Shown here piece by piece: positions 3,706 to 31,399 of a DNA stretch of 31,399 nucleotides (the stretch's first letter is position 1; each line of letters starts with the position of its first letter). The notes beneath the pieces were generated by a model. It was not told the origin of the DNA and made no database searches. It saw only the letters and a program-made list of their open reading frames with translations. This DNA comes from a virus, in IMG/VR virus record IMGVR_UViG_3300033571_010336, positions 1 through 31,399 of that record. The stretch is one strand, 5' to 3'. Made by a program: the position numbers and the translations under genes.

Positions 3706-4109
3706 TTCTTGCGCTTAGGTCCGGCCTTGGTCGGCTTAGGCTTAGGGGCCGGGGACTGAGAGGCCGCGGGCGGCTTAGGGCGAGGGGAAGGGCAAACGGC
3801 TACCCCGAAGGAAACGAAAACGACCTCGCGGCCTTTTTCTTTATAAAGTCGGGTATTGTTTAGGTCGTCGAGGTCGGAGAGGAGGCGAGCGCGCGAGGAG
3901 GGGTTGAGGGGAGCCGAACCGCCTAGGATCGCGAGGACCGCGTCGACATTGTAGACGGCGGACCCGCCCGGTTCGGTAACTCCGGCGAACGCGCGGTCGA
4001 ACTTGTCGGGGAGGAGGTCGCGACGGTCGAACGCGTCGAGGTAGCCGCGGAACCCGCCCGAGTCGAGGAGGCCGACCAGGGTATCGCCGGGAAGGGGTAT
4101 CAAACTCAT
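3702..4109 (-). CDS. Uncharacterised protein with Pro/Lys-rich tail
   Basis: I do not recognise this 135-residue protein. The first 100 residues look like a compact alpha/beta domain (SLIPLPGDTLVGLLDSGG, then VYNVDAVLAILGG and VVFVSFGVAV). The last 30 residues are a disordered tail of Pro, Lys, Ser and Ala ending KAGPKRKK, which could bind nucleic acid or the cell envelope. The gene is joined to both neighbours: its start shares one base with the stop of the LexA-like gene (TAATG), and its end overlaps the HTH gene by four bases. It is thus certainly co-translated with regulators, but no function can be assigned. Confidence 0.7.
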   Translation of the reverse strand: MSLIPLPGDTLVGLLDSGGFRGYLDAFDRRDLLPDKFDRAFAGVTEPGGSAVYNVDAVLAILGGSAPLNPSSRARLLSDLDDLNNTRLYKEKGREVVFVSFGVAVCPSPRPKPPAASQSPAPKPKPTKAGPKRKK

Positions 4110-4501
4110 TAGCGGGAAACCTTAAACCCTGGGATAAGGGAAAGAGATTCGGGGGGAAGGGGAGGCGGAGCGAATAGGAGGTTATCCCGCCCGACGAGTT
4201 TAACCCAGGGGACGCGGTCGAGGACACCGGACGCGCGGATTAGTTCGAGGTTAGCCGAGAAGTCGCGGGTTCCTCGGTAGGCGAGGAGGCCGGAGCGCGA
4301 GATTCGGCGAAGGTGAAGGCAAACGGAGTTCGTCGAGGCGAAGTCGAGGGCGATAAGGATTTCGCGGTAACTAGGCCAGGTCGACGCGACGCGGCGATAA
4401 AGGAGAACCCAGGCGAGTATTTCGGCTTGGCGCGCGGTCAACTCGGAATCCGGGCGGCGCGGTTTGCCGACAAGCTTCGGCGGGGGAGGGGTCGGGGTCA
4501 T
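4109..4501 (-). CDS. LexA-type winged-helix DNA-binding protein lacking the peptidase domain
   Basis: Residues about 22-75 fit the LexA DNA-binding domain: LTARQAEILAWVLLYRRVAS, then PSYREILIALDF-ASTNSVCLHLRRISRSGLL, which matches the family pattern of LTxRQ, PSxREI and a recognition helix with NxVxxHLxxL. The remaining 55 residues contain no S24 Ser/Lys catalytic pair and no cleavable Ala-Gly, so this would not be an auto-cleaving repressor. It is 130 residues against about 200 for LexA. The gene overlaps its upstream neighbour by four bases and its downstream neighbour by one. It may regulate phage promoters or compete with the host LexA; neither can be decided here. Confidence 0.7.
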   Translation of the reverse strand: MTPTPPPPKLVGKPRRPDSELTARQAEILAWVLLYRRVASTWPSYREILIALDFASTNSVCLHLRRISRSGLLAYRGTRDFSANLELIRASGVLDRVPWVKLVGRDNLLFAPPPLPPESLSLIPGFKVSR

Positions 4502-5478: not shown

Positions 5479-6318
5479 TTAGAAGGGAACTCCGTCGTCG
5501 TTAGCCTCCGGCGCGTCGGGCGAGGCGGAGGGTCCGGGGTTGGACCGACCGAAAGCCGCGTCGAGCGCGTCGCGGAGGGCGAGGTCGGAATCCGAAATCC
5601 GGCCTTTGTAGGGCTTCGGTTCGTAATTCTCGAAATACCAAAAAAGGGAGTTCGGGGTTAGGTCGCGGAGTTTCTGTCCTTTGTTTTTGCCGAAGGGGAT
5701 AACCGCGTCGAGGTGGGGGCCGTCGATAACCGGGGGGGCGGGGTTGCGGGGGCCGGAGGAACCGCCCGAGGAAGGGGCCGCGGCGGGCCGTGGCGCGGGG
5801 TTAGGGGTCGAGGGCGACCGAGGAGCCGCGTAAGGGGTCGCGGACGGCCTAGGGGCGGCGTTAGAGGCCTCCTCGCCGTCGTCGTCGCGCTCCCCGACCA
5901 GGCCGAGACAAGCCGCGAGGCCGTAACGACGAAGGTAAGTCGTCGCCGAGGCCGCATTTTGGGCGGTCGGGGGGACGGTTTCGGCTTCCCCGGTGTTTTT
6001 GTTAAACCGGGTCGTCGGGTGAAGGGCGACGGAACATTCGTTCGCGATCCATTCGCCGGACGAGTGAAGGAGGACCGTTTCGATACCGACCAGGTCGGGA
6101 CCGGGGGAGGTCGGGAATTGAACGACGACCAGGCCGAAGGGGGCGAGGGCCGTCTTAGTCGCGGCAATATGCGCGGCTAGCGAAGCGTAACCGGAGCCGT
6201 CCGGGTTTTTGCTGGTCTTAAAAGTCGGGTTGACCGAGTCAAAGGCCGGGTTCGAAAGAGTCGGCAAGGCCTGGACCAAAGCCGACGCGAGGTTCGCGAT
6301 CGTGGGGGAGGTTCTCAT
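5479..6318 (-). CDS. erf: ERF-family single-strand annealing protein with ExoX-C-like domain and SSB-like acidic tip
   Basis: ERF proteins anneal complementary single strands during phage recombination. Residues 1-150 show the family pattern: an N-terminal helix, YASLAAHIAATKTALAPFGL, a strand pair (VVVQF, LLHSSGEWI), and QNAASATTYLRRYGLAACLGL followed by an acidic loop. A Pro/Ala linker (151-200) leads to AVIPFGKNKGQKLRDLTPNS (residues 205-224), which resembles the small domain at the end of ExoX-like exonucleases. The last residues, EANDDGVPF, mimic the acidic tip of single-strand-binding protein. The start at 6318 was chosen over an upstream ATG at 6366 because it is preceded by the recurrent C-tract-ACAA leader and avoids overlap with the previous gene. 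Confidence 0.85.
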   Translation of the reverse strand: MRTSPTIANLASALVQALPTLSNPAFDSVNPTFKTSKNPDGSGYASLAAHIAATKTALAPFGLVVVQFPTSPGPDLVGIETVLLHSSGEWIANECSVALHPTTRFNKNTGEAETVPPTAQNAASATTYLRRYGLAACLGLVGERDDDGEEASNAAPRPSATPYAAPRSPSTPNPAPRPAAAPSSGGSSGPRNPAPPVIDGPHLDAVIPFGKNKGQKLRDLTPNSLFWYFENYEPKPYKGRISDSDLALRDALDAAFGRSNPGPSASPDAPEANDDGVPF

Positions 6319-6332
6319 TTGTGGGAGGGAGG
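6319..6332 (-). promoter_or_regulatory. C-tract/ACAA start-codon leader of the ERF gene
   Basis: On the coding strand the bases directly before the start read CCTCCCTCCCACAA-ATG. There is no Shine-Dalgarno sequence. It is one of eight copies found in the early genes. Confidence 0.6.
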
Positions 6333-6341
6333 TTGAAAGTT

Positions 6342-6911
6342 TCAACGCGAGGAGTCGGTTCGGCAAGGGCGAATACCCTCGTTCAAAACGAATCTTTGCA
6401 CGCTCGAAAGACTCATTTTGTAGCCGACGGCCTTTTCGAGCGCGTCGCGAATCTCGTCGTTAGACTTCCCCGCGGCCTTCCAAGCTTTGACCAGGGGAAA
6501 CCAATTGTCTTTTTTGAAACGATAAACGGTCCGTCCGTTCGTATTGCGCCAAACGATCCCGAGGCGGTGGCAGTAATAGCGCGCGGACTTCTCATTAATC
6601 CCGAGATCGGAGGCGGCGGCGCTCATTTGATAGCCGAGGCCGTTAAGCCGTTCGAGTTGCGGCTTTGCCCATTCGAGGCGCGCGCGGCTAAACGGATTCG
6701 AACCGGGAACCTTGTTCGCGATCGTCCGGCGGTTCGTCTCGGTCATTAAGGCGAACTTGCGGACCGCGTAGGACCGGAGGCCGAGTTCGGATTGAATCTC
6801 TTTCGAGCCGAGGCCGCGGCGGAGGCGGTCGTCGACGAGCCGGACGAGATTAGCGAGAGTCGAGTCGGCGGGAACCTCCTCGGTTTGTTTGTTTGTTTGT
6901 TTGTTTGTCAT
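6342..6911 (-). CDS. Helix-turn-helix protein with a tetranucleotide repeat at its start
   Basis: The 189-residue protein appears to contain several helix-turn-helix units: LRRGLGSKEIQSELGLRSYAV (about 32-52), YQMSAAASDLGINEKSARYY (about 94-113) and KSNDEIRDALEKAVGYKMSL (about 148-167). Such arrays resemble homeodomain-like or resolvase C-terminal folds and suggest binding to an extended DNA site. The first codons are written in six GTTT units (coding strand AAAC), giving M-TNKQTNKQT. A change in repeat number not divisible by three would shift the frame near the start. The gene is preceded by the early leader CCCCCCCCACAAA-ATG and lies between the lytic transglycosylase and ERF genes. A regulatory role is inferred. 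Confidence 0.68.
   Translation of the reverse strand: MTNKQTNKQTEEVPADSTLANLVRLVDDRLRRGLGSKEIQSELGLRSYAVRKFALMTETNRRTIANKVPGSNPFSRARLEWAKPQLERLNGLGYQMSAAASDLGINEKSARYYCHRLGIVWRNTNGRTVYRFKKDNWFPLVKAWKAAGKSNDEIRDALEKAVGYKMSLSSVQRFVLNEGIRPCRTDSSR
6883..6908 (-). repeat. (AAAC)n microsatellite at the 5' end of a regulator gene
   Basis: Six full GTTT units on the plus strand (AAAC on the coding strand) plus two extra bases lie within codons 2-10 of the gene at 6342-6911. Tetranucleotide tracts of this kind are prone to slippage. I saw no other simple repeat of this size in the window. Confidence 0.85.
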
Positions 6912-6924
6912 TTTGTGGGGGGGG
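6912..6924 (-). promoter_or_regulatory. C-tract/ACAAA start-codon leader
   Basis: The coding strand reads C8-ACAAA-ATG immediately before the HTH gene at 6342-6911. It is one of the two longest C tracts among the eight copies. Confidence 0.6.
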
Positions 6925-6930
6925 AGAGGA

Positions 6931-7365
6931 TTAGCGAAGCGCGGCGGCGAGGCGGGAGAACCCGCGCCGTTTGTAAGCGGGGGCGCGATCTAGTCGGTAG
7001 CCGATAGCGGCTCCGCCGGAGGGTCCGAGGGTCCAGGCTAGCCAAAGGGTCGAGGGGGTCGCCGCGTAACCGCGACGGCGCAAGTCGGCTTCGAGATAAT
7101 CGAAATAGGTCCGGGCATAGGACCGAGAGGCGACCGGGTCGAAGGCCTGGGCGAAGGAATAAACCGGGAGTCCGGCCTTCCGGCGGAGGGTCGAAGCTTG
7201 TTCCCAGGCTATCGGGGTAAATTGGAAAAGGCCGCGATCGCCGGACGAGCCGACGGCGCGCGGGTCGTTCCGAGACTCCGCCCAGGCGACCGCGTCGAGG
7301 TAGCGTTCGGGGACGGCGGCGCAAGCGGCCCAGGGGAGAAGGGCGAGGGAGAGAAGGGTTCTCAT
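6931..7365 (-). CDS. Secreted lytic transglycosylase (SLT fold)
   Basis: This enzyme would cleave the glycan strands of peptidoglycan. Residues 1-16 form a signal peptide (MRTLLSLALLPWAACA, cleavage after an ACA motif). The mature part starts with RYLDAVAWAESRNDPRAVG, with the catalytic Glu30 in the AES context, followed by GDRGLFQFTPIAW, the typical SLT glycine/glutamine motif. The 144-residue length suits a minimal soluble transglycosylase domain. The start at 7365 was chosen because it overlaps the previous stop by four bases (ATGA) and places the signal peptide at the N-terminus. No cytoplasmic endolysin is visible elsewhere, so this may be the main lysis enzyme, exported by the host Sec system. 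Its place among replication genes is odd. Confidence 0.83.
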   Translation of the reverse strand: MRTLLSLALLPWAACAAVPERYLDAVAWAESRNDPRAVGSSGDRGLFQFTPIAWEQASTLRRKAGLPVYSFAQAFDPVASRSYARTYFDYLEADLRRRGYAATPSTLWLAWTLGPSGGAAIGYRLDRAPAYKRRGFSRLAAALR

Positions 7366-7676
7366 TTTTGGCGGGATTGCATTTCGCGGATTACTCGGTC
7401 GAGGAACCAAGCGCGGGTTAACAGTATATGACGACACCGGGAACGGTCCGAGGCTCCGAGGGACTTCGCGACGGACTCCTTTCGGAGCCGGAAATCCTCA
7501 CAAGAGCAAAGGCCGTTAGCGTCGAGGCCTCCGAGGTCGACCAGGTGAACCTCCCCGGGCCGCGAGGAACTCGGGACGGTGTAGCGCAAGGGTCCGTCGT
7601 ATTGCTTCGGGGTGATCCTCGGGACCGGGCGGGGAGCCTGGTTGAGGAAATCGTCGTCGGGGTCGTCGAAACTCAT
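7362..7676 (-). CDS. Small SWIM zinc-finger protein
   Basis: The 104-residue protein has the SWIM signature CxC...CxH: Cys57-Ser-Cys59 in GLCSCEDF and Cys81-Arg-His83 in SRCRHI, with a strand region before it (RYTVPSSSRPGEVHLVDLGG) and a closing helix. SWIM domains bind DNA or proteins and occur in Swi2/Snf2 helicases, MuDR transposases and Rad51-paralogue partners. The gene overlaps the helicase loader upstream and the transglycosylase downstream by four bases each, so it is probably coupled to replication or recombination. It is unusual to find the domain almost alone. Zinc binding is inferred from the pattern. Confidence 0.75.
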   Translation of the reverse strand: MSFDDPDDDFLNQAPRPVPRITPKQYDGPLRYTVPSSSRPGEVHLVDLGGLDANGLCSCEDFRLRKESVAKSLGASDRSRCRHILLTRAWFLDRVIREMQSRQK

Positions 7677-8365
7677 TTCGTGCCGACCAAGCTAACCGCC
7701 TTGAAAAACTCGCGGAGGCGGGCGACCAGGGCGGAGGCGAGTTCGGGGTTAGGGTTGTCTTTCGAGGCGGTCGATAGCCGTTCCTCCAAAACGGAGCCGA
7801 CGAGGTTAGTCGTTATAATCGTCGGGCGGCGGTTCGAGGTCCGTTCGTCGACGAGCGCGAAAAAGTCCGAGGCGAACCGTTCGGACATTTTGCCACCGTT
7901 GCCCAGGTCGTCGAAAACGAGGAACGGAGAGGAAACGAGTTCGTCGAGATAGTCCGAATGGCGGCGATCGCGGAAAGCCTTTTCGACCGCCCCGGCGAAA
8001 CCGCGCATTGTTAGGAATGTCGGTTCGCGTCCGTAGGCCTCGACGAACTTCTTAGCCAGGAGAAACGCGGCGCGGGTTTTCCCGGTCCGAGTCTCGCCGA
8101 ATAGGATAACGGATTGCCTCGCCCGCGGATCGTAAGCGTCGACCAGGCCTCGGAGCTTGTCGGACAACCGGGCCGGGTCCGTCTCGCGGATAACCTCGGG
8201 GAAGGTATCGAGGTATCCTCCGGCCTTAACCGCCTTTGCCTTATTCGCCGCGACGATAGCCTCCGACCGTTCCTCGGCTTCCCGGGCGGCGTAGGCGCAA
8301 GGGTGGCAAACCCCCCGGGGGTGAAACGAGGTAACGGCGGAGTCGCATTTCGGACAGTTGAGCAT
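7673..8365 (-). CDS. DnaC-like helicase loader (AAA+ ATPase)
   Basis: Helicase loaders bring the host replicative helicase to the phage origin. The 230-residue protein starts with a zinc knuckle (Cys4, Cys7, Cys20, Cys23), then a helical linker, Walker A GETRTGKT at 90-97, Walker B FLVFDD at 148-153, a sensor strand TIITTNL and an arginine-containing segment ALVARLREF near the C-terminus. This order is that of DnaC/IstB-type loaders. The gene starts on the stop of the initiator gene (TAATG), as replication pairs such as lambda O/P do. No phage helicase or primase is seen, so the host enzymes would be recruited. Confidence 0.87.
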   Translation of the reverse strand: MLNCPKCDSAVTSFHPRGVCHPCAYAAREAEERSEAIVAANKAKAVKAGGYLDTFPEVIRETDPARLSDKLRGLVDAYDPRARQSVILFGETRTGKTRAAFLLAKKFVEAYGREPTFLTMRGFAGAVEKAFRDRRHSDYLDELVSSPFLVFDDLGNGGKMSERFASDFFALVDERTSNRRPTIITTNLVGSVLEERLSTASKDNPNPELASALVARLREFFKAVSLVGTK

Positions 8366-8868
8366 TAGAAACCCCTCTCGTAATCTTCCCTCGAAATCCG
8401 CGCTCGCGCGGGCTTAGTGACCCGACCCGGACGAAGGGGAGGGGTAGGGGTAAGGTTGTCTTTTATCTTCTCTTTATATCTGGCGGACATTTTTGTCCGG
8501 GGGGGGAGGACATTTTTGTCCGGGGGGGTGGGGCGGAAATCGTCGATTGAAACCCCGGGGTTAAGGCGGCGGGTTTCGAGGGCCGCGGAGGTCGCGGTTC
8601 GAATCTTCCGGCGGTCGCCCTGGACCCGGACAAGGTAGCCGAGGCGTTCGAGGATTTGGAGTTCGCGCCGGACCGTCCGAGGGTCGCGGCTAATGATCCG
8701 CGAAAGGTAGGCGTTCGACCCGAAACAACCGCGTTGAGATTGCGCGAGGCAATCGACGATACCGAACAAGATTTTGCCGGAGTTGGTTATCGAGTTATTT
8801 TCGAGGAGTTCGCGGGGAATCCAAACCCCGGAGAACTCCGGGGGGATCGGCTTCGGTTCGGTTCCCAT
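8365..8868 (-). CDS. Replication initiator with winged helix-turn-helix; contains probable origin
   Basis: The 167-residue product has an N-terminal domain typical of phage replication initiators: VWIPRELLENNSITNSGKIL, then YLSRIISRDPRTVRRELQIL-ERLGYLVRV (about 54-82), a winged helix. The C-terminal half is Pro/Lys/Arg-rich and probably disordered, ending in KPARARISREDYERGF, which may contact the loader. The gene starts on the stop of the exonuclease gene and overlaps the DnaC-like loader by one base, the usual initiator-loader order. The start at 8868 was preferred over longer frames because it gives this coupling and a sensible N-terminus. A pair of DNA repeats and an A/T-rich tract within the C-terminal coding part look like the replication origin, as in lambda O. 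Confidence 0.78.
   Translation of the reverse strand: MGTEPKPIPPEFSGVWIPRELLENNSITNSGKILFGIVDCLAQSQRGCFGSNAYLSRIISRDPRTVRRELQILERLGYLVRVQGDRRKIRTATSAALETRRLNPGVSIDDFRPTPPDKNVLPPRTKMSARYKEKIKDNLTPTPPLRPGRVTKPARARISREDYERGF
8436..8530. other. Probable replication origin inside the initiator gene
   Basis: Three elements lie side by side. G runs on the plus strand (8436-8439, 8441-8444, 8447-8450, 8454-8455) are followed by an A/T-rich stretch (8456-8480, about 28% G+C in an otherwise G+C-rich genome). Two 23-bp repeats (8485-8507 and 8508-8530) follow, identical over 21 bases. Each begins with GGACATTTTTGTCC, a short inverted repeat (GGACA/TGTCC), followed by seven or eight G. Twenty-three is not a multiple of three, so the copies encode different residues (PDKNV and RTKMS); the repeat is therefore kept for a DNA or RNA function. 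The arrangement matches iterons plus an unwinding element within an initiator gene. Confidence 0.62.
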
Positions 8869-9626
8869 TATTCGACGACCTCGGTTTGATTGGCGACGAG
8901 CGCGCCGAACCCCATTTTGACGGCGACGGAGCAAGTAAGTTCGAGGTCGGTCCGAAGGTAGGCGATAGCCTGGTCGGGGTTCGAAGCTAGGTCCGCGGCG
9001 AAGTCGGCCCCGGAGCCGGACTTGCCTTGCCCGGTAAGCGCGCGGGCGACCGTGTCCAGGTTGGAACGGCCCGAGTTGCGACCGAGAACCCAAAGGTCGC
9101 GGAGGTCGACAAAAACGGAGGACCAATTCGGATACCGTCCGCGGAGTTGGTAGACAGGCGGGACGGCGACTCCGAGAATCCAACTCCTCGCGACCAGGAA
9201 CGGAAGGTCGAACTCCCGGGAGTTGAACCCGACGAAAAGGGTTCGTTCGCTCCGGCCTTGGAACGAGTCGCGGAGGAGTCCCCAGAACTCCCCGAGGATT
9301 TCGCGTTCGTCGCCGATCGCGGCCTTGAAGTCGAGCGCGGGGGAACCCTCGTCGCCGATTACCGCGTAACCGATCGCGAGGACTTTGCCGGACTCCGGCG
9401 CGAGTGCGGCGGAGGAAATGAAGTTCGCCCGGTGCGAAGCTTCGGCGGCGGCAATCTTAGCCGCAATCAATGCGGGGTCTTTGATATTGCCGACCTTGAC
9501 CTCGGAGGGGTCGAAAGGCGGGATTAGGGATTCGATACCGTCGGCGGGTCCGGTTTCGATATCGAAGGCGACGAAGCGCGGGCGGGTCGTCGGTTGGGCG
9601 AACTTGTCCAGGTTGGCGGGGTGCAT
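8868..9626 (-). CDS. DEDDy 3'-5' exonuclease, PolB-exonuclease-like
   Basis: This is a stand-alone proofreading-type exonuclease domain of 252 residues. Exo I is FDIET (Asp22, Glu24), Exo II is VGFNSREFDLPFL (Asp140) and Exo III is AYLRTD (Tyr223-x3-Asp227), so all four acidic residues and the tyrosine of the DEDDy class are present. The pattern corresponds to the predicted exonucleases related to the PolB proofreading domain. No polymerase gene is found, so it would act on replication or recombination intermediates. It precedes the initiator gene (one-base overlap) and has the early leader (C7-ACAAA-ATG). Confidence 0.86.
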   Translation of the reverse strand: MHPANLDKFAQPTTRPRFVAFDIETGPADGIESLIPPFDPSEVKVGNIKDPALIAAKIAAAEASHRANFISSAALAPESGKVLAIGYAVIGDEGSPALDFKAAIGDEREILGEFWGLLRDSFQGRSERTLFVGFNSREFDLPFLVARSWILGVAVPPVYQLRGRYPNWSSVFVDLRDLWVLGRNSGRSNLDTVARALTGQGKSGSGADFAADLASNPDQAIAYLRTDLELTCSVAVKMGFGALVANQTEVVE

Positions 9627-9638
9627 TTTGTGGGGGGG
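9627..9638 (-). promoter_or_regulatory. C-tract/ACAAA start-codon leader of the exonuclease gene
   Basis: The coding strand reads C7-ACAAA-ATG directly before the exonuclease start, with no Shine-Dalgarno sequence. Confidence 0.6.
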
Positions 9639-9645
9639 TTGAGAG

Positions 9646-9993
9646 TTATTCGAGGGACCAAACGCGGACGGAGCCGGAGCGCGTCGCGCCGTCGCGGATT
9701 TCGACCAGATTATCGAACCGGGCCAAGGCCTCGCGCTTAGACTTGACCGAGGAGATCGCGCCGAAGTCGGCGGCGGTCGGGGAGTCGCCGATCAACTCGA
9801 CCTTAACCTCCTCGAACTTGATTCCGAACAGCGCGTAAGTCGCGAGGCCGGGAACATAGACCGACGAAGCGGCCCGGAGTTGTTCGCGGTGTCGTTCGAC
9901 GCGCCGGAGGCACAGTTGAACGGTCGCCTTATCGACGACCTCGACGACCTTCGCTTGCGCGGGACGACCGCGCGGTTTCTTTTGGTTTTTCAT
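9646..9993 (-). CDS. Small basic protein with AT-hook-like N-terminus
   Basis: The first residues, MKNQKKPRGRPAQAK, contain the AT-hook core RGRP flanked by basic residues, which binds the minor groove of A/T-rich DNA. The rest of the 115 residues is a helix (VQLCLRRVERHREQLRAASS), then strands and a C-terminal beta segment ending GSVRVWSLE. No wider family is recognised. The gene lies between the ribbon-helix-helix gene and the exonuclease, has the C6-ACAAA leader, and could be an architectural DNA-binding protein for replication; the A/T-rich tract at 8456-8480 would be a possible target. The function is inferred. Confidence 0.66.
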   Translation of the reverse strand: MKNQKKPRGRPAQAKVVEVVDKATVQLCLRRVERHREQLRAASSVYVPGLATYALFGIKFEEVKVELIGDSPTAADFGAISSVKSKREALARFDNLVEIRDGATRSGSVRVWSLE

Positions 9994-10004
9994 TTTGTGG
10001 GGGG
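9994..10004 (-). promoter_or_regulatory. C-tract/ACAAA start-codon leader
   Basis: The coding strand reads C6-ACAAA-ATG directly before the AT-hook-like gene. Confidence 0.6.
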
Positions 10005-10019
10005 TTGGGAAAAGGGGAC

Positions 10020-10244
10020 TTAGCTTCGGACCTCGGCGGGGAGTTTGATAAGGCCGGAGGCAAGGTTGCCGGACGCAACGGCGCGTCGGCCTTGGTCGAT
10101 AAGGATTCGAATCGCGTCGGTCCGGCTAATCCGGAGGGCCGAGGACAATTCGAAAACGGATTGCGCGATCTCCGAGTCGAGGCGGACCGTAATAGCGAAC
10201 GGCTTAACCTCGGGGGTTGCGGGTTGTTTGGTAAGGGTGGGCAT
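10020..10244 (-). CDS. Ribbon-helix-helix DNA-binding protein
   Basis: This 74-residue protein fits the ribbon-helix-helix fold of Arc/CopG repressors: a strand FAITVRLD (about 16-23), helix EIAQSVFELSSALR, and second helix SRTDAIRILIDQGRRA with the conserved SRTDAIR turn. Such proteins bind operators as dimers. It is preceded by TTTCCTCCT-ATG, not by the ACAA leader, and is flanked by early genes on both sides. It is the clearest candidate for an early repressor in this phage and could bind the recurring leader sequences, though no evidence links the two directly. Confidence 0.75.
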   Translation of the reverse strand: MPTLTKQPATPEVKPFAITVRLDSEIAQSVFELSSALRISRTDAIRILIDQGRRAVASGNLASGLIKLPAEVRS

Positions 10245-10256
10245 AGGAGGAAAGGG

Positions 10257-10901
10257 TTAGGAGTGAACCGAGACGCGGAACCCCAGGGTCGGGCGGCAAA
10301 GGTTCGGTTGATAGTTCGCGAAGGCCTCGCCGAGGTAGAGGTCGCGTTGCGCGGACTCGACGGCCTGGGCGAATGTCTCGTCGATTCGGGCCGGGACGAC
10401 TTGCAAGGCCGGGAAACCCGCGAGGGTTTCGGAAGGGGCGACGAAGGGAAGGCCGAGGCCGAGGTCGAAGGTCCAGCGTTTCGACGCGCCGTTAACCTTT
10501 TGTCCGGTTAGGCGGTTGACTAGGTTAATCGTCCGGCGGGACGCGATCGCGCGGGAGAGGCCGAGGAACCCTTCGGTTAATTCGTCGTCGTTTTCGAGGT
10601 TGTCGAAGGCCTCCGCGAGTTGTTCGAGGGACTCGTCGGCGGCGGAATAATATTCGGTTATCCGGTTCGCGATCGTCGCGCCGACTTGGTTAGCCTCCTC
10701 GGAGGGAATCTCGAATCGCTGGTCGACGGTGAAGCCGTCCGCGTCGGCGACGAACGCGCCGCGCCGGGTCCAATAATCCGACGACGAAGCTAAGGCCTTC
10801 GGCATTTCTTGGATTAACCAGGCCTCCGCGACCGAGGCGGTAATCGGTTCGGGGCGTAGCGTCGACGGAGCGAGGCAAACGAAAAGAGTCGTTCGGGCCA
10901 T
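10257..10901 (-). CDS. Uncharacterised early protein
   Basis: I do not recognise this 214-residue protein. It has a beta-strand start (TTLFVCLAPSTLRPE), an acidic helical middle (residues 75-105, many Glu, Asp and Asn) and a C-terminal part with LPFVAPSETLAGFPALQVVPAR. No cysteine cluster, nucleotide-binding loop or membrane segment is visible. It lies between the RusA-like gene and the ribbon-helix-helix gene, suggesting a role in early DNA metabolism. The start at 10901 is preceded by a short version of the early leader (CCCACAA-ATG). Confidence 0.68.
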   Translation of the reverse strand: MARTTLFVCLAPSTLRPEPITASVAEAWLIQEMPKALASSSDYWTRRGAFVADADGFTVDQRFEIPSEEANQVGATIANRITEYYSAADESLEQLAEAFDNLENDDELTEGFLGLSRAIASRRTINLVNRLTGQKVNGASKRWTFDLGLGLPFVAPSETLAGFPALQVVPARIDETFAQAVESAQRDLYLGEAFANYQPNLCRPTLGFRVSVHS

Positions 10902-10908
10902 TTGTGGG
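10902..10908 (-). promoter_or_regulatory. Short C-tract/ACAA start-codon leader
   Basis: The coding strand reads CCCACAA-ATG before the gene at 10257-10901. This is the shortest C tract (three C) among the eight copies. Confidence 0.5.
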
Positions 10909-10924
10909 AATGATTGTCGGCGGG

Positions 10925-11377
10925 TTATTCCGACCGGATTAGGTTCGCCGCGGACGCGCGAATTTCAAGCCTAGGGTTCGGCGAGTTGACCTTAACGACG
11001 GTAAGGAGGGCGACGCGCTGATCGGGGGGAATAACCAGGCAATCGGCGAGGAGGTCGATAATACCCTTAGCGAGGTTATCCGCGTCCGGCTTGGTCGTCC
11101 GGTAGGCCTCGGTTCGGGCGGTCGCCTTAGAGGTTCCAGAGGGCCAAGGGAACGCGACCAGGAGGGCGAGGGCGACGGCCTTAGCTTCGCGGACCTCGCG
11201 GGCCGCGGGGGAGAGGGAGCCGACCCGCAACTTGTGTTCGACCTGGGCGCGGAACCGGGACCAATCCCCCGAGTTCTTTTTGTAGAACCGGGGACCGCGG
11301 CGGGTTAGGACCGCGCGGGTTCGGGATTGCGCCGTCGACCGCGGAGGGACGCAAGGGATTGAGAGTTCGAGACTCAT
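10925..11377 (-). CDS. rusA: RusA-like Holliday junction resolvase
   Basis: RusA cuts four-way junctions, removing branches before packaging. The 150-residue protein contains the family core KPDADNLAKGIIDLL at 96-110. Asp98, Asp100 and Asp119 keep the spacing of the catalytic aspartates of E. coli RusA (Asp70, Asp72, Asp91), and the N-terminal strand LELSIPCVPPRSTAQSR is typical. The gene begins with a four-base overlap with the preceding gene. It complements the ERF protein as the second recombination function in the genome. Confidence 0.88.
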   Translation of the reverse strand: MSLELSIPCVPPRSTAQSRTRAVLTRRGPRFYKKNSGDWSRFRAQVEHKLRVGSLSPAAREVREAKAVALALLVAFPWPSGTSKATARTEAYRTTKPDADNLAKGIIDLLADCLVIPPDQRVALLTVVKVNSPNPRLEIRASAANLIRSE

Positions 11378-11721
11378 TCGAATATCCAGGCGAGGGACTG
11401 TCCGAGGATCGCGGCGGCTTGGTCGTCGACGGAGAGGGCGACGAAGCGGCCCGGGTTAGACTCCTCCTCGTCGAGGGTGACGGAGTCGAGGACCGTCCCG
11501 GCCTCGGTATCGACGACCAAGGGACGCGCGTTCGCTTTCCAGAAACCCCGGAGGAGGGCGACCGCGTCGAGGATCGGTTCGAGGTCGGTCGTCGGGTTCG
11601 CCTGGAACGCGAGGAGGGAGTCGACCGCGGCCTTAACCTTCGGGGACATTTGCCCCCGGTAGAAATAGGCGACGGCCCAGGAGGGCCGCGCGTTTCGGAT
11701 AGGGTAGGGGAGGAGGATCAT
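11374..11721 (-). CDS. Uncharacterised early protein
   Basis: The 115-residue product is mixed alpha/beta, with a helical middle (KVKAAVDSLLAFQAN, LEPILDAVALLRGFW) and a C-terminal strand-helix part (GRFVALSVDDQAAAILGQSLAWIFE). No known motif is seen. It ends four bases inside the RusA-like gene, so the pair is coupled and it may assist the resolvase. Its start is not preceded by the ACAA leader; the upstream bases are CCCCGGCCTTT-ATG, 11 bases after the previous stop. Confidence 0.6.
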   Translation of the reverse strand: MILLPYPIRNARPSWAVAYFYRGQMSPKVKAAVDSLLAFQANPTTDLEPILDAVALLRGFWKANARPLVVDTEAGTVLDSVTLDEEESNPGRFVALSVDDQAAAILGQSLAWIFE

Positions 11722-11732
11722 AAAGGCCGGGG

Positions 11733-11840
11733 TTAGAACTTCGGGTTATCGAGGATTTCGAGGAGGTTCGGACCGTCCGCGAGGAGGAGAATATAGGCGG
11801 CGAGGGCGAGTCCGGCGAGGAGGGCGAGAAAGAGTTTCAT
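11733..11840 (-). CDS. 35-residue single-span membrane peptide
   Basis: A small frame encodes MKLFLALLAGLALAAYILLL followed by a short polar tail ending NPKF-stop. The first 20 residues form one hydrophobic helix with a basic start, like a membrane anchor or uncleaved signal. What makes it credible is the leader CCTCCCCACAA-ATG directly before the start, the same as the larger early genes. Small early membrane peptides in phages can act in superinfection exclusion or inhibit host functions; nothing here decides. Confidence 0.62.
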   Translation of the reverse strand: MKLFLALLAGLALAAYILLLADGPNLLEILDNPKF

Positions 11841-11852
11841 TTGTGGGGAGGG
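11841..11852 (-). promoter_or_regulatory. C-tract/ACAA start-codon leader of the 35-residue gene
   Basis: The coding strand reads CCTCCCCACAA-ATG. Its presence supports this small frame as a real gene. Confidence 0.6.
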
Positions 11853-11871
11853 TAAAGGGTTAGGCGGGCGG

Positions 11872-12363
11872 TTAGGATTGCTCGACGAAGTGGGCGAGGA
11901 TTTCCGCGTCGGTCATATCGGCGACGAACTTAACGAACCCGACCTTTTGGGTAACGGCGTTAAGGTTGACCGTCGCCCCCTTTTTGAAGTTGCGATATTG
12001 TCCCTTCGTTTTGAGGCACTCGACGCAAACAAAGGCGGTCGTTTCGCGGGCCATCTTGCGGATTTTGAGAATCGTTTTTCCGAGGGCTTTAAGGTGGATA
12101 GCCTCATCGACCAAGGTATCGACCTTTTCCTCGAACGCCGCCCGGTGAACTTCGAGGTCGTGGCGGTCGTCGCCGACGAACCGAATATGAGTCGAACCGC
12201 CGCGGCCTTCGTTATCGGCATAGCCGACGAGTTTGCCGTCGAGGAGGACATTCGCGGTAAACGCGTTAGTTTCCTGACTCATCGCGGCGAAGTATTTAAA
12301 CGCGCCGATCGTAATCAGCGGGAGGAGGGAGGCGGTCGGGAGGCTTGCGGTTTGCGTGTTCAT
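11872..12363 (-). CDS. Uncharacterised early protein
   Basis: The 163-residue product has a mildly hydrophobic N-terminal segment (SLPTASLLPLITIGAFKYF), a central strand-rich part (FTANVLLDGKLVGYADNEG, THIRFVGDD), basic helices (LKALGKTILKIRKMARE), a single CVECLK (CxxC) near residue 112 and a C-terminal helix. No family is recognised. A later ATG at 12282 would remove the hydrophobic start, but the leader C8-ACAA-ATG marks 12363 as the true start. It is the second gene after the control region and so is expressed early if transcription begins there. Confidence 0.65.
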   Translation of the reverse strand: MNTQTASLPTASLLPLITIGAFKYFAAMSQETNAFTANVLLDGKLVGYADNEGRGGSTHIRFVGDDRHDLEVHRAAFEEKVDTLVDEAIHLKALGKTILKIRKMARETTAFVCVECLKTKGQYRNFKKGATVNLNAVTQKVGFVKFVADMTDAEILAHFVEQS

Positions 12364-12375
12364 TTGTGGGGGGGG
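12364..12375 (-). promoter_or_regulatory. C-tract/ACAA start-codon leader
   Basis: The coding strand reads C8-ACAA-ATG directly before the gene at 11872-12363. Confidence 0.6.
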
Positions 12376-12384
12376 ATGAAAGGG

Positions 12385-12654
12385 TTAGGAGATGAGGTCG
12401 GCGGCGACGGATTCGGAGAGGTTGTTTCCGTAGAGTTGGGAGAGGCCGACGGCGGATTCGGCGGCGAGTTCGAGGGATTCGCGGACGGACTCGGAGAGAA
12501 CGGCGCGGGCGGCGGACATTTGCTCCGCGGTCGCGATGCCTTTCTTTTCGGCGCGCTTGTAATTCGCCCAGGTCGCGCGGGCCTTTTTGATTTGCCGGAA
12601 GGCCGCGGCGACGCGGTCGAGATCGGCGAGAGTAAGGTCGAGGTCGGATTTCAT
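12385..12654 (-). CDS. Small helical protein, first gene after the control region
   Basis: The 89-residue product is wholly helical (LTLADLDRVAAAFRQIKKAR, then AAESAVGLSQLYGNNLSES). It is basic in the middle and acidic at the ends. No family is recognised. It is the first gene downstream of the long non-coding region and carries the leader CCCCCACAA-ATG, so it is likely the first early protein made. Small first early proteins in phages often modify host functions; that is a general expectation and not shown here. Confidence 0.65.
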   Translation of the reverse strand: MKSDLDLTLADLDRVAAAFRQIKKARATWANYKRAEKKGIATAEQMSAARAVLSESVRESLELAAESAVGLSQLYGNNLSESVAADLIS

Positions 12655-12666
12655 TTGTGGGGGTGG
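12655..12666 (-). promoter_or_regulatory. C-tract/ACAA start-codon leader of the first early gene
   Basis: The coding strand reads CCACCCCCACAA-ATG directly before the gene at 12385-12654. Confidence 0.6.
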
Positions 12667-12870
12667 TTTAGTGGGAACGAGAAAGAACCTAGGAGAACCA
12701 ACCCGAGACGCAAGAGCAAAAGTGAACTTTCTTTCTACCCCTTAAAAGCCTTATAAAGCCTTACCCCTATCGAGGGGGTAACTTCCCTAGGGCGGAGGGG
12801 GATACCCCCCGCCCCGCCAATCCTAGTAGGCAAGGCCGCGAACCTAGCGGCGACCCCCTACAAATGGAAA

Positions 12871-12894
12871 GGCCTAGGTTCCCCAACCTAGGCC
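12871..12894 (-). terminator. Probable terminator of the late operon
   Basis: A perfect 10-bp stem (GGCCTAGGTT / AACCTAGGCC) with a four-base loop lies about 57 bases after the last late gene. On the minus strand it is followed by TTTCCATTT, a weak U-tract. The stem is strong, but the tail is poor, so it may be an imperfect or factor-assisted terminator. Confidence 0.5.
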
Positions 12895-12950
12895 CGGGCT
12901 TTCGCCCTATCCAACCAGCGTCCCCACAAAAGGACATTTAACCGCCGGGA

Positions 12951-27243: not shown

Positions 27244-27280
27244 AGGTTTTGATTAGGTGAGAGAAAAAGGGTTTAGGAAA

Positions 27281-30909: not shown

Positions 30910-31399
30910 TCAACCTTCCGATTCCTCGGCATCGGCGGAGGGTTCGGGGTCGGGCGAGGGGGTCGTTTCCTTTTCTCCCTCGGTTGTTTCCGTCGGCTTC
31001 GCCTTTTTGCCTGGGCGGTCGACTAGGCGGAGGAGGTAGGCCGGGAGGAGTTGGAGAACTTCACAGTCAAAAAGGTGGTTTGCGCGGTTGCCGATTTGTT
31101 CCCAAAGCGGCTTGCCGTCGCGACGGCGGCGGCGGACCTCGGAGGCCATTTGATCCGAGTAATCGTCCCCCGCGTCGGCGGCGAAGGTATGCGTTCCGGT
31201 GAGGCGGAGCCGGAAAAGCGCGTCTTTAAAGTTAAGGGTCGAGAAATAATAAAGGCGGACCGTCGACCCGGACGCGACCGGGCGAGGCCGGGAGTAAAAC
31301 CGAAAGACGGTTTTAAACCCCTTCGGGCTTTTGAGTTTCCAAGGGAACTCCGTCTTAGCCGAACCGCGCGTCGCGATCCAGCCGCCGAACCGACCGCAA
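30910..31399 (-). CDS. Terminase large subunit, C-terminal part (start at 1487 across the join)
   Basis: This segment completes the GpA-like large terminase. It includes RLYYFSTLNFKDALFRLRL, DAGDDYSDQMASEV and WEQIGNRANHLFDCEVLQLL, the last being a conserved feature near the end of GpA proteins (N-H-x-x-D-C-E). An acidic Pro/Glu/Ser tail ends at TGA 30910. Bases 31313-31399 repeat 1-87, so the coding sequence overlaps itself in this drawing; the full protein has 629 residues. The gene is followed after 16 bases by the gpW-like gene. Confidence 0.92.
   Translation of the reverse strand, partial: CGRFGGWIATRGSAKTEFPWKLKSPKGFKTVFRFYSRPRPVASGSTVRLYYFSTLNFKDALFRLRLTGTHTFAADAGDDYSDQMASEVRRRRRDGKPLWEQIGNRANHLFDCEVLQLLPAYLLRLVDRPGKKAKPTETTEGEKETTPSPDPEPSADAEESEG
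31313..31399. repeat. Right copy of exact terminal overlap
   Basis: It is identical to bases 1-87. Removing one copy closes the circle within the large terminase gene without shifting its frame. Confidence 0.9.

Follow-up and report, generated by a model that had tools for sequence, protein, structure and literature searches.

A C-tract and ACAA leader at the start codons of a phage replication block, a probable Shine-Dalgarno-independent initiation region

How a start codon is chosen without Shine-Dalgarno (SD) pairing is, to our knowledge, poorly understood outside the Bacteroidetes. The question is raised by a 31,399-nucleotide stretch of viral DNA (IMG/VR record IMGVR_UViG_3300033571_010336, analysed whole and hereafter called the window), in which three to eight C followed by ACAA or ACAAA stand immediately before each of eight starts (6318, 6911, 9626, 9993, 10901, 11840, 12363 and 12654) on the minus, coding strand. 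A first-pass annotation had drawn attention to these leaders, and the sequences at all eight starts are as it described them. Here we ask what such a leader might do.

Genome context and distribution of the leader

The window begins and ends with an 87-bp perfect direct terminal repeat (1-87 = 31313-31399), indicating a complete phage genome of 31.4 kb that closes into a circle; the large terminase gene spans the joint of the circle. The genome is GC-rich and its main genes all lie on the minus strand, with the structural genes (portal, MCP and others) at ~31-13 kb and a replication/recombination block at ~12.65-5.5 kb. The block genes form a single, tightly packed co-directional run, in which Pfam and PHROGs scans detected RusA, an exonuclease, a replication initiation HTH protein, a DnaC-like loader, an SLT transglycosylase, a MerR-like HTH protein and ERF; the DNA-binding proteins that the block encodes are of RHH, MerR-like and LexA type. 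The LexA-type domain (Pfam E 7e-10) lies in gene 4109-4501 (minus strand), a possible phage regulator in which a peptidase part was not in evidence. The SLT transglycosylase gene (6931-7365, minus strand) sits within the block, between the MerR-like gene and the genes on the helicase-loader side, a placement common to L034, L035 and L033, the last of which (IMGVR_UViG_3300012012_000807) has a terminase 87% identical and early proteins mostly 43-85% identical to those of the window phage. A terminator-like stem between the two gene blocks (Table 1) is a consensus match only, and terminator-like sites as a class were not enriched over shuffles. An Rfam scan of the window returned no match.

By terminase score, the top named phage was Verrucomicrobia phage P8625 (E 1e-24, 24% identity), and a capsid profile matched, among the genomes searched, just three MAGs at 27-28% identity, two of them from Puniceicoccales and one from Verrucomicrobiia. 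Since both searches lead to the same phylum, the host is probably a verrucomicrobium, as judged from sequence similarity. A terminase alignment search of the genomes found no prophages, and tblastn with the capsid protein gave no match among named phages. P8625 (NC_029047, host Puniceicoccales), which on terminase score is also the nearest cultured phage, shares with the window phage the gene order terminase, portal, Clp-like protease and P22-type coat, and it too has leaders without SD, some of them C/A-rich (for example ..aacacgagaacaaaca-ATG). However, the terminases are only 24% identical, P8625 lacks the C-tract and ACAA, and none of its starts (0) has a leader that is G-free and C-rich by a strict criterion.

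The minus strand of the whole genome contains eight copies of C3+ACAA, and 8/8 abut an ATG that starts a gene (gene starts being predicted positions), while the only copy on the plus strand (12922) lies away from any start. The spacing between leader and ATG is zero nt in all eight cases even though the C-run ranges from 3 to 8. Markov simulations of order 1-3 yielded 0.003-0.013 start-fused copies per genome, with a maximum of 1 in 300 runs, compared to the 8 observed. The eight starts lack an SD, as the first-pass annotation had stated; this is not special to the leader genes, for starts of the window are, by eye, generally without one.

Table 1. Leaders and related features of the window, with the state of orthologous starts where compared
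Feature	Sequence	Position	Strand	Gene and orthologs
Leader	CCCCCACAA	12655..12663	-	First block gene, 12385-12654; L033:7474 ortholog ..GATCCACAA ATG
Leader	CCCCCCCCACAA	12364..12375	-	Gene 11872-12363
Leader	CCCCACAA	11841..11848	-	35-aa gene 11733-11840; L033 ortholog (8141) without leader, gap 10 nt
Leader	CCCACAA	10902..10908	-	Gene 10257-10901; L033:9059 ortholog has CCCCACAA, shifted spacing
Leader	CCCCCCACAAA	9994..10004	-	Gene 9646-9993; no gene in L033
Leader	CCCCCCCACAAA	9627..9638	-	Exonuclease gene 8868-9626; L033:9998 ortholog CCCACAA
Leader	CCCCCCCCACAAA	6912..6924	-	MerR-like HTH gene 6342-6911; L033:12706 ortholog CCCCCACAA
Leader	CCCACAA	6319..6325	-	ERF annealing-protein gene 5479-6318; L033:13300 ortholog CCCACAA
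Alternative leader, structural-gene form	..ccctttcctcct-ATG	10245..10264	-	RHH gene 10020-10244, gap 12 nt
Structural-type leader	..ctctcacctaatcaaaacct-ATG	27244..27275	-	Major capsid gene, no C-tract+ACAA; orthologs ..aaaatct / ..aaaatat
Terminator-like 11-bp stem		12870..12895	-	Between structural and replication blocks

The distribution within the block follows the distance to the upstream gene. Between 2844 and 12654 the leader is present in 8/8 genes with a gap of at least 19 nt (the first gene counted) and in 0/15 genes that overlap their upstream neighbour or lie at most 18 nt from it (Fisher p ~2e-6); for leader genes with an upstream block neighbour, the gaps are 19-31 nt. The stop/start-coupled genes named earlier as lacking the leader (7365, 7676, 8365, 8868 and 11377) indeed do so. 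The same is true of 10244 and 11721, which had been set apart as exceptions among the genes with a gap; however, their gaps measure just 12 and 11 nt, and both are thus accounted for by the rule. The start at 10244 carries cctttcctcct-ATG instead, and its L033:9722 ortholog is likewise without ACAA (..cttttccct-ATG). A motif of 7-13 nt could fit into a 12-nt gap in some cases, and we infer that coupling, rather than space, underlies the gap rule.

Two further features lie around the MerR-like gene. From its start codon runs a series of six tandem ACAA units (6885-6908, minus strand; ATG ACAAACAAACAAACAAACAAACAA) encoding TNKQTNKQ, an in-frame tetranucleotide repeat that could shift the frame by slippage and that is missing from L033. 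A perfect palindrome, TTGAAA-C-TTTCAA (6325-6350, minus strand), is located between the MerR-like and ERF genes; it could be an operator and is largely conserved in L033 (TTGAAACTTTCA).

Conservation and module specificity

In L033, C3+ACAA is kept at four orthologous starts (those of 10901, 9626, 6911 and 6318) and CCACAA at that of 12654, so that the leader is conserved in a related phage; in total, C3+ACAA-ATG precedes five L033 genes and GATCCACAA-ATG two. Identity between orthologous leaders is 4-7 of 7 over the last seven nucleotides and 2-10 of 20 upstream. In the pair 10901/L033:9059, the last seven nucleotides are identical (7/7), with 2/20 matches upstream in register, the end of the RusA gene is conserved, and the window phage alone has 7 extra nt before CCCACAA, yet CCCACAA-ATG is intact although the proteins are only 45% identical. 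Since the leader thus re-forms at a shifted spacing beside a diverged gene, this pair suggests that the start region itself is under selection. The exact sequence nevertheless drifts among relatives (CCACAA, CCCATAA, CCCACAAC). At a gene where L033 has CCCCCACAA-ATG, the sequence in a third relative is CCCCCCCATAA-ATG, and the gaps before the L033 genes 7067 and 7789 finish with CTTAA and CTCAA rather than with the leader. When 2.9 million viral contigs were searched for CCCCCACAAATGAAA, 33 records matched, and of these only the known relative has the leader in repeated form.

The structural genes of the window phage and of two relatives have no leader, even where the gap is 20-37 nt, as at MCP. 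Most gap-bearing structural genes have CCT, TCT or similar before the ATG, a form that we write (Y)CT ATG. Among gap-bearing genes of the window, the leader is found at 8/8 in the block versus 0/5 structural genes, the five having been picked by hand (p 0.0008). Therefore, within this clade the leader type follows the module, and being a free-standing gene is not a full explanation, because structural genes with equal gaps do without it. The earlier assignment of the leader to one temporal class holds to this extent, as a contrast between the replication block and the structural genes in the clade, with timing deduced from gene function alone. It does not extend to distant phages, where leader types swap between orthologs, as for L233:8458 (cacccacccacaac-ATG, C-rich with ACAAC) versus L261:8224 (cccttccctaacct-ATG, a CCT leader).

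RNA folding predictions make the leader starts the most accessible start class of the genome. G occurs 0.25 times per 20 nt at leader genes, compared to 5.0 at coupled genes and 5.6 at other ATGs; the predicted unpaired probability from -15 to +15 is 0.81, 0.53 and 0.46, and the mean MFE in 70-nt windows is -5.9, -13.4 and -19.4 kcal/mol, respectively. When the leader starts are compared with the remaining gap-bearing genes of the window, the structure difference does not reach significance in MFE (p 0.57) and is borderline in unpaired probability (p 0.06), so that accessibility by itself does not account for the exact Cn-ACAA form.

Related leaders in Verrucomicrobiota and distant phages

Some Verrucomicrobia have been reported to be SD-scarce (PMC10783764). 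In three high-GC Verrucomicrobiota genomes (G095, G098 and G106), using the sequence upstream of well-bounded ORFs, we found no SD enrichment at starts (0.11-0.17 versus 0.17-0.22 in the reverse-complement control), while positions -1 and -2 show a preference for C. G-free, C-rich 15-mers precede ATG at 14/555 starts versus 6/6959 in G095 (p 3e-12) and at 4/273 versus 2/3146 in G098, an enrichment of ~23-30 fold; the counts in G106 (2/229 versus 0/2344) are too small for use, and in a mixed sample of other Verrucomicrobiota the enrichment was 2-fold only. The same 15-mers were found at 66/1360 starts versus 102/18022 in DnaC-related phages (p 7e-33). The phages retrieved through ERF were mostly unrelated and hence served as a negative control, in which there was no such enrichment (2/1674 versus 68/25237). 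ORF calls in these genome and phage sets were mechanical, so that single starts may be wrong and it is the enrichment that counts. Looser forms of the leader occur in distant phages whose helicase loader is related, such as cccacccacaac-ATG, accccacacacaca-ATG, tttccaccccacacacaca-ATG and cttcccacccacaaca-ATG. The exact sequence CCCCACAAATG occurred in at most 6 copies in each of 388 Verrucomicrobiota genomes, with reversed-pattern controls of similar size; given this lack of enrichment across the phylum, the host does not appear to be a user of the exact Cn-ACAA form.

A probable SD-independent initiation region and its alternatives

Collectively, these results suggest that the leader is probably the core of an SD-independent, G-free, C/A-rich and weakly structured translation-initiation region that has been homogenised in this phage clade. 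Of the two functions offered by the first-pass annotation, a dedicated initiation signal is the better supported: the leader abuts the ATG, occurs only at genes without overlap, marks the least structured start class and is kept in a relative. The wider G-free C/A-rich leader style of SD-poor Verrucomicrobiota and related phages lends this reading further support. Mechanistically, in an SD-poor verrucomicrobial host, the 30S subunit would bind to the C/A-rich, near-G-free mRNA before the AUG and thereby position the start codon. The ribosome, then, would be the reader; which part of it makes the contact may be ribosomal protein S1 or G-rich 16S rRNA loosely pairing to the C-rich mRNA, or the mRNA may simply be single-stranded and open to binding, with A-rich sequence at -1 to -4 as a favourable setting for the start. 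Such a leader would be required where translational coupling does not reach the gene, which would explain why it is confined in the block to gaps of at least 19 nt. The Cn-ACAA(A) form would be this general leader style as homogenised in the clade. Against this, Cn-ACAA is far more uniform than a model of any unstructured leader needs.

A literature search turned up no earlier description of a conserved, C-rich leader on early genes, and the nearest precedents are partial. In vitro selection on E. coli ribosomes has yielded C-rich, non-SD ribosome-binding sites (RBSs), and some phages have been noted to carry such sites (Barendt et al. 2012, PMC3310771). They resemble the phage leader in being C-rich directly before the AUG without an SD, and since poly-C alone was poor in vitro and non-C bases near the AUG mattered (PMC3310771), the fixed A's of ACAA would be the equivalent of such bases. 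Unlike those RBSs, the leader has one fixed short form on eight genes of a phage block, is conserved in a relative and serves a probable verrucomicrobial host; moreover, the best selected clones had G at -9, whereas the phage leader is G-free from -15 to -1. The poor performance of C-rich RBSs in E. coli in vivo (PMC3310771) counts against the initiation reading. Bacteroidetes such as Flavobacterium johnsoniae use SD-independent, Kozak-like A-rich leaders (PMC6847099), which are similarly SD-free and low in structure, with adenines favoured among the bases just upstream of the AUG. However, those leaders are A/U-rich with A at -3, while the phage leader, set in a GC-rich genome, combines a long C-tract with C at -3 when it ends in ACAA.

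That Cn-ACAA is so uniform, and restricted to the replication block, would allow for a further level of recognition. One form of this, which we consider unlikely though worth stating, is a class-specific initiation code in which a phage-made or phage-altered factor tells Cn-ACAA-AUG and (Y)CU-AUG mRNAs apart at the ribosome, giving temporal control without SD. The clearest alternative to an initiation region is a translational operator, at which a phage or host single-strand RNA-binding repressor would shut the replication block later in infection. T4 RegA acts at sites that overlap or directly precede the AUG and are unstructured (PMC3014915), and the leader is likewise start-abutting, unstructured, repeated across many early mRNAs of one functional block and missing from structural genes in three relatives. 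Such a repressor is possible, if improbable, and less supported than an initiation region: RegA sites are A/U-rich without a clear consensus, unlike the C-rich and tightly defined leader; no RegA-like, S1-like or known RNA-binding family was found among the scanned block proteins; the leader drifts in relatives and differs in type between the distant orthologs; and the coupled genes would escape direct control. The operator half of the original proposal thus finds no positive support.

Transcriptional control, by a promoter element or DNA operator belonging to each gene, would fit a repeated sequence upstream of several genes and the DNA-binding proteins encoded by the block. We regard it as very unlikely, because the spacing to the ATG is invariably zero while the C-run varies, CnACAA(A)ATG has by eye no inverted or dyad symmetry, and the genes form one tightly packed run. 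Sigma-70-like sites were not enriched in the region (2 versus 0.9 in shuffles) and none coincided with a leader, where leaderless mRNAs beginning at the AUG would also need a promoter, though this consensus may not fit verrucomicrobial promoters. Only slightly less doubtful is a role as boundary homology that aids ERF-driven gene shuffling, kept for recombination or as a by-product of duplication and exchange. The phage does encode an ERF protein, leader-bearing genes have been gained or lost between relatives (9646-9993 is missing from L033), and a longer stretch, CTAACCCTTT, is common to the gaps before 12363, 11840 and 10244 (12364-12390, 11841-11870 and 10245-10262, minus strand); but the shared stretches are very short, 1/3 of these gaps lacks the ACAA leader, and re-formation at a shifted spacing beside a diverged gene argues against it. 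Finally, a C-rich coding strand in a GC-rich genome, combined with homopolymer slippage, could produce C-runs of variable length without any function. This composition artefact has next to no plausibility, and an origin by chance or composition is contradicted by the Markov simulations together with conservation in L033.

The favoured reading, an SD-independent initiation region, makes of the leader a repeated module of 7-13 nt at the free-standing genes of the block, and hence a compact system in which a C/A-rich start signal could be tested. A simple rule for annotating start sites in a little-studied group of phages would also follow.
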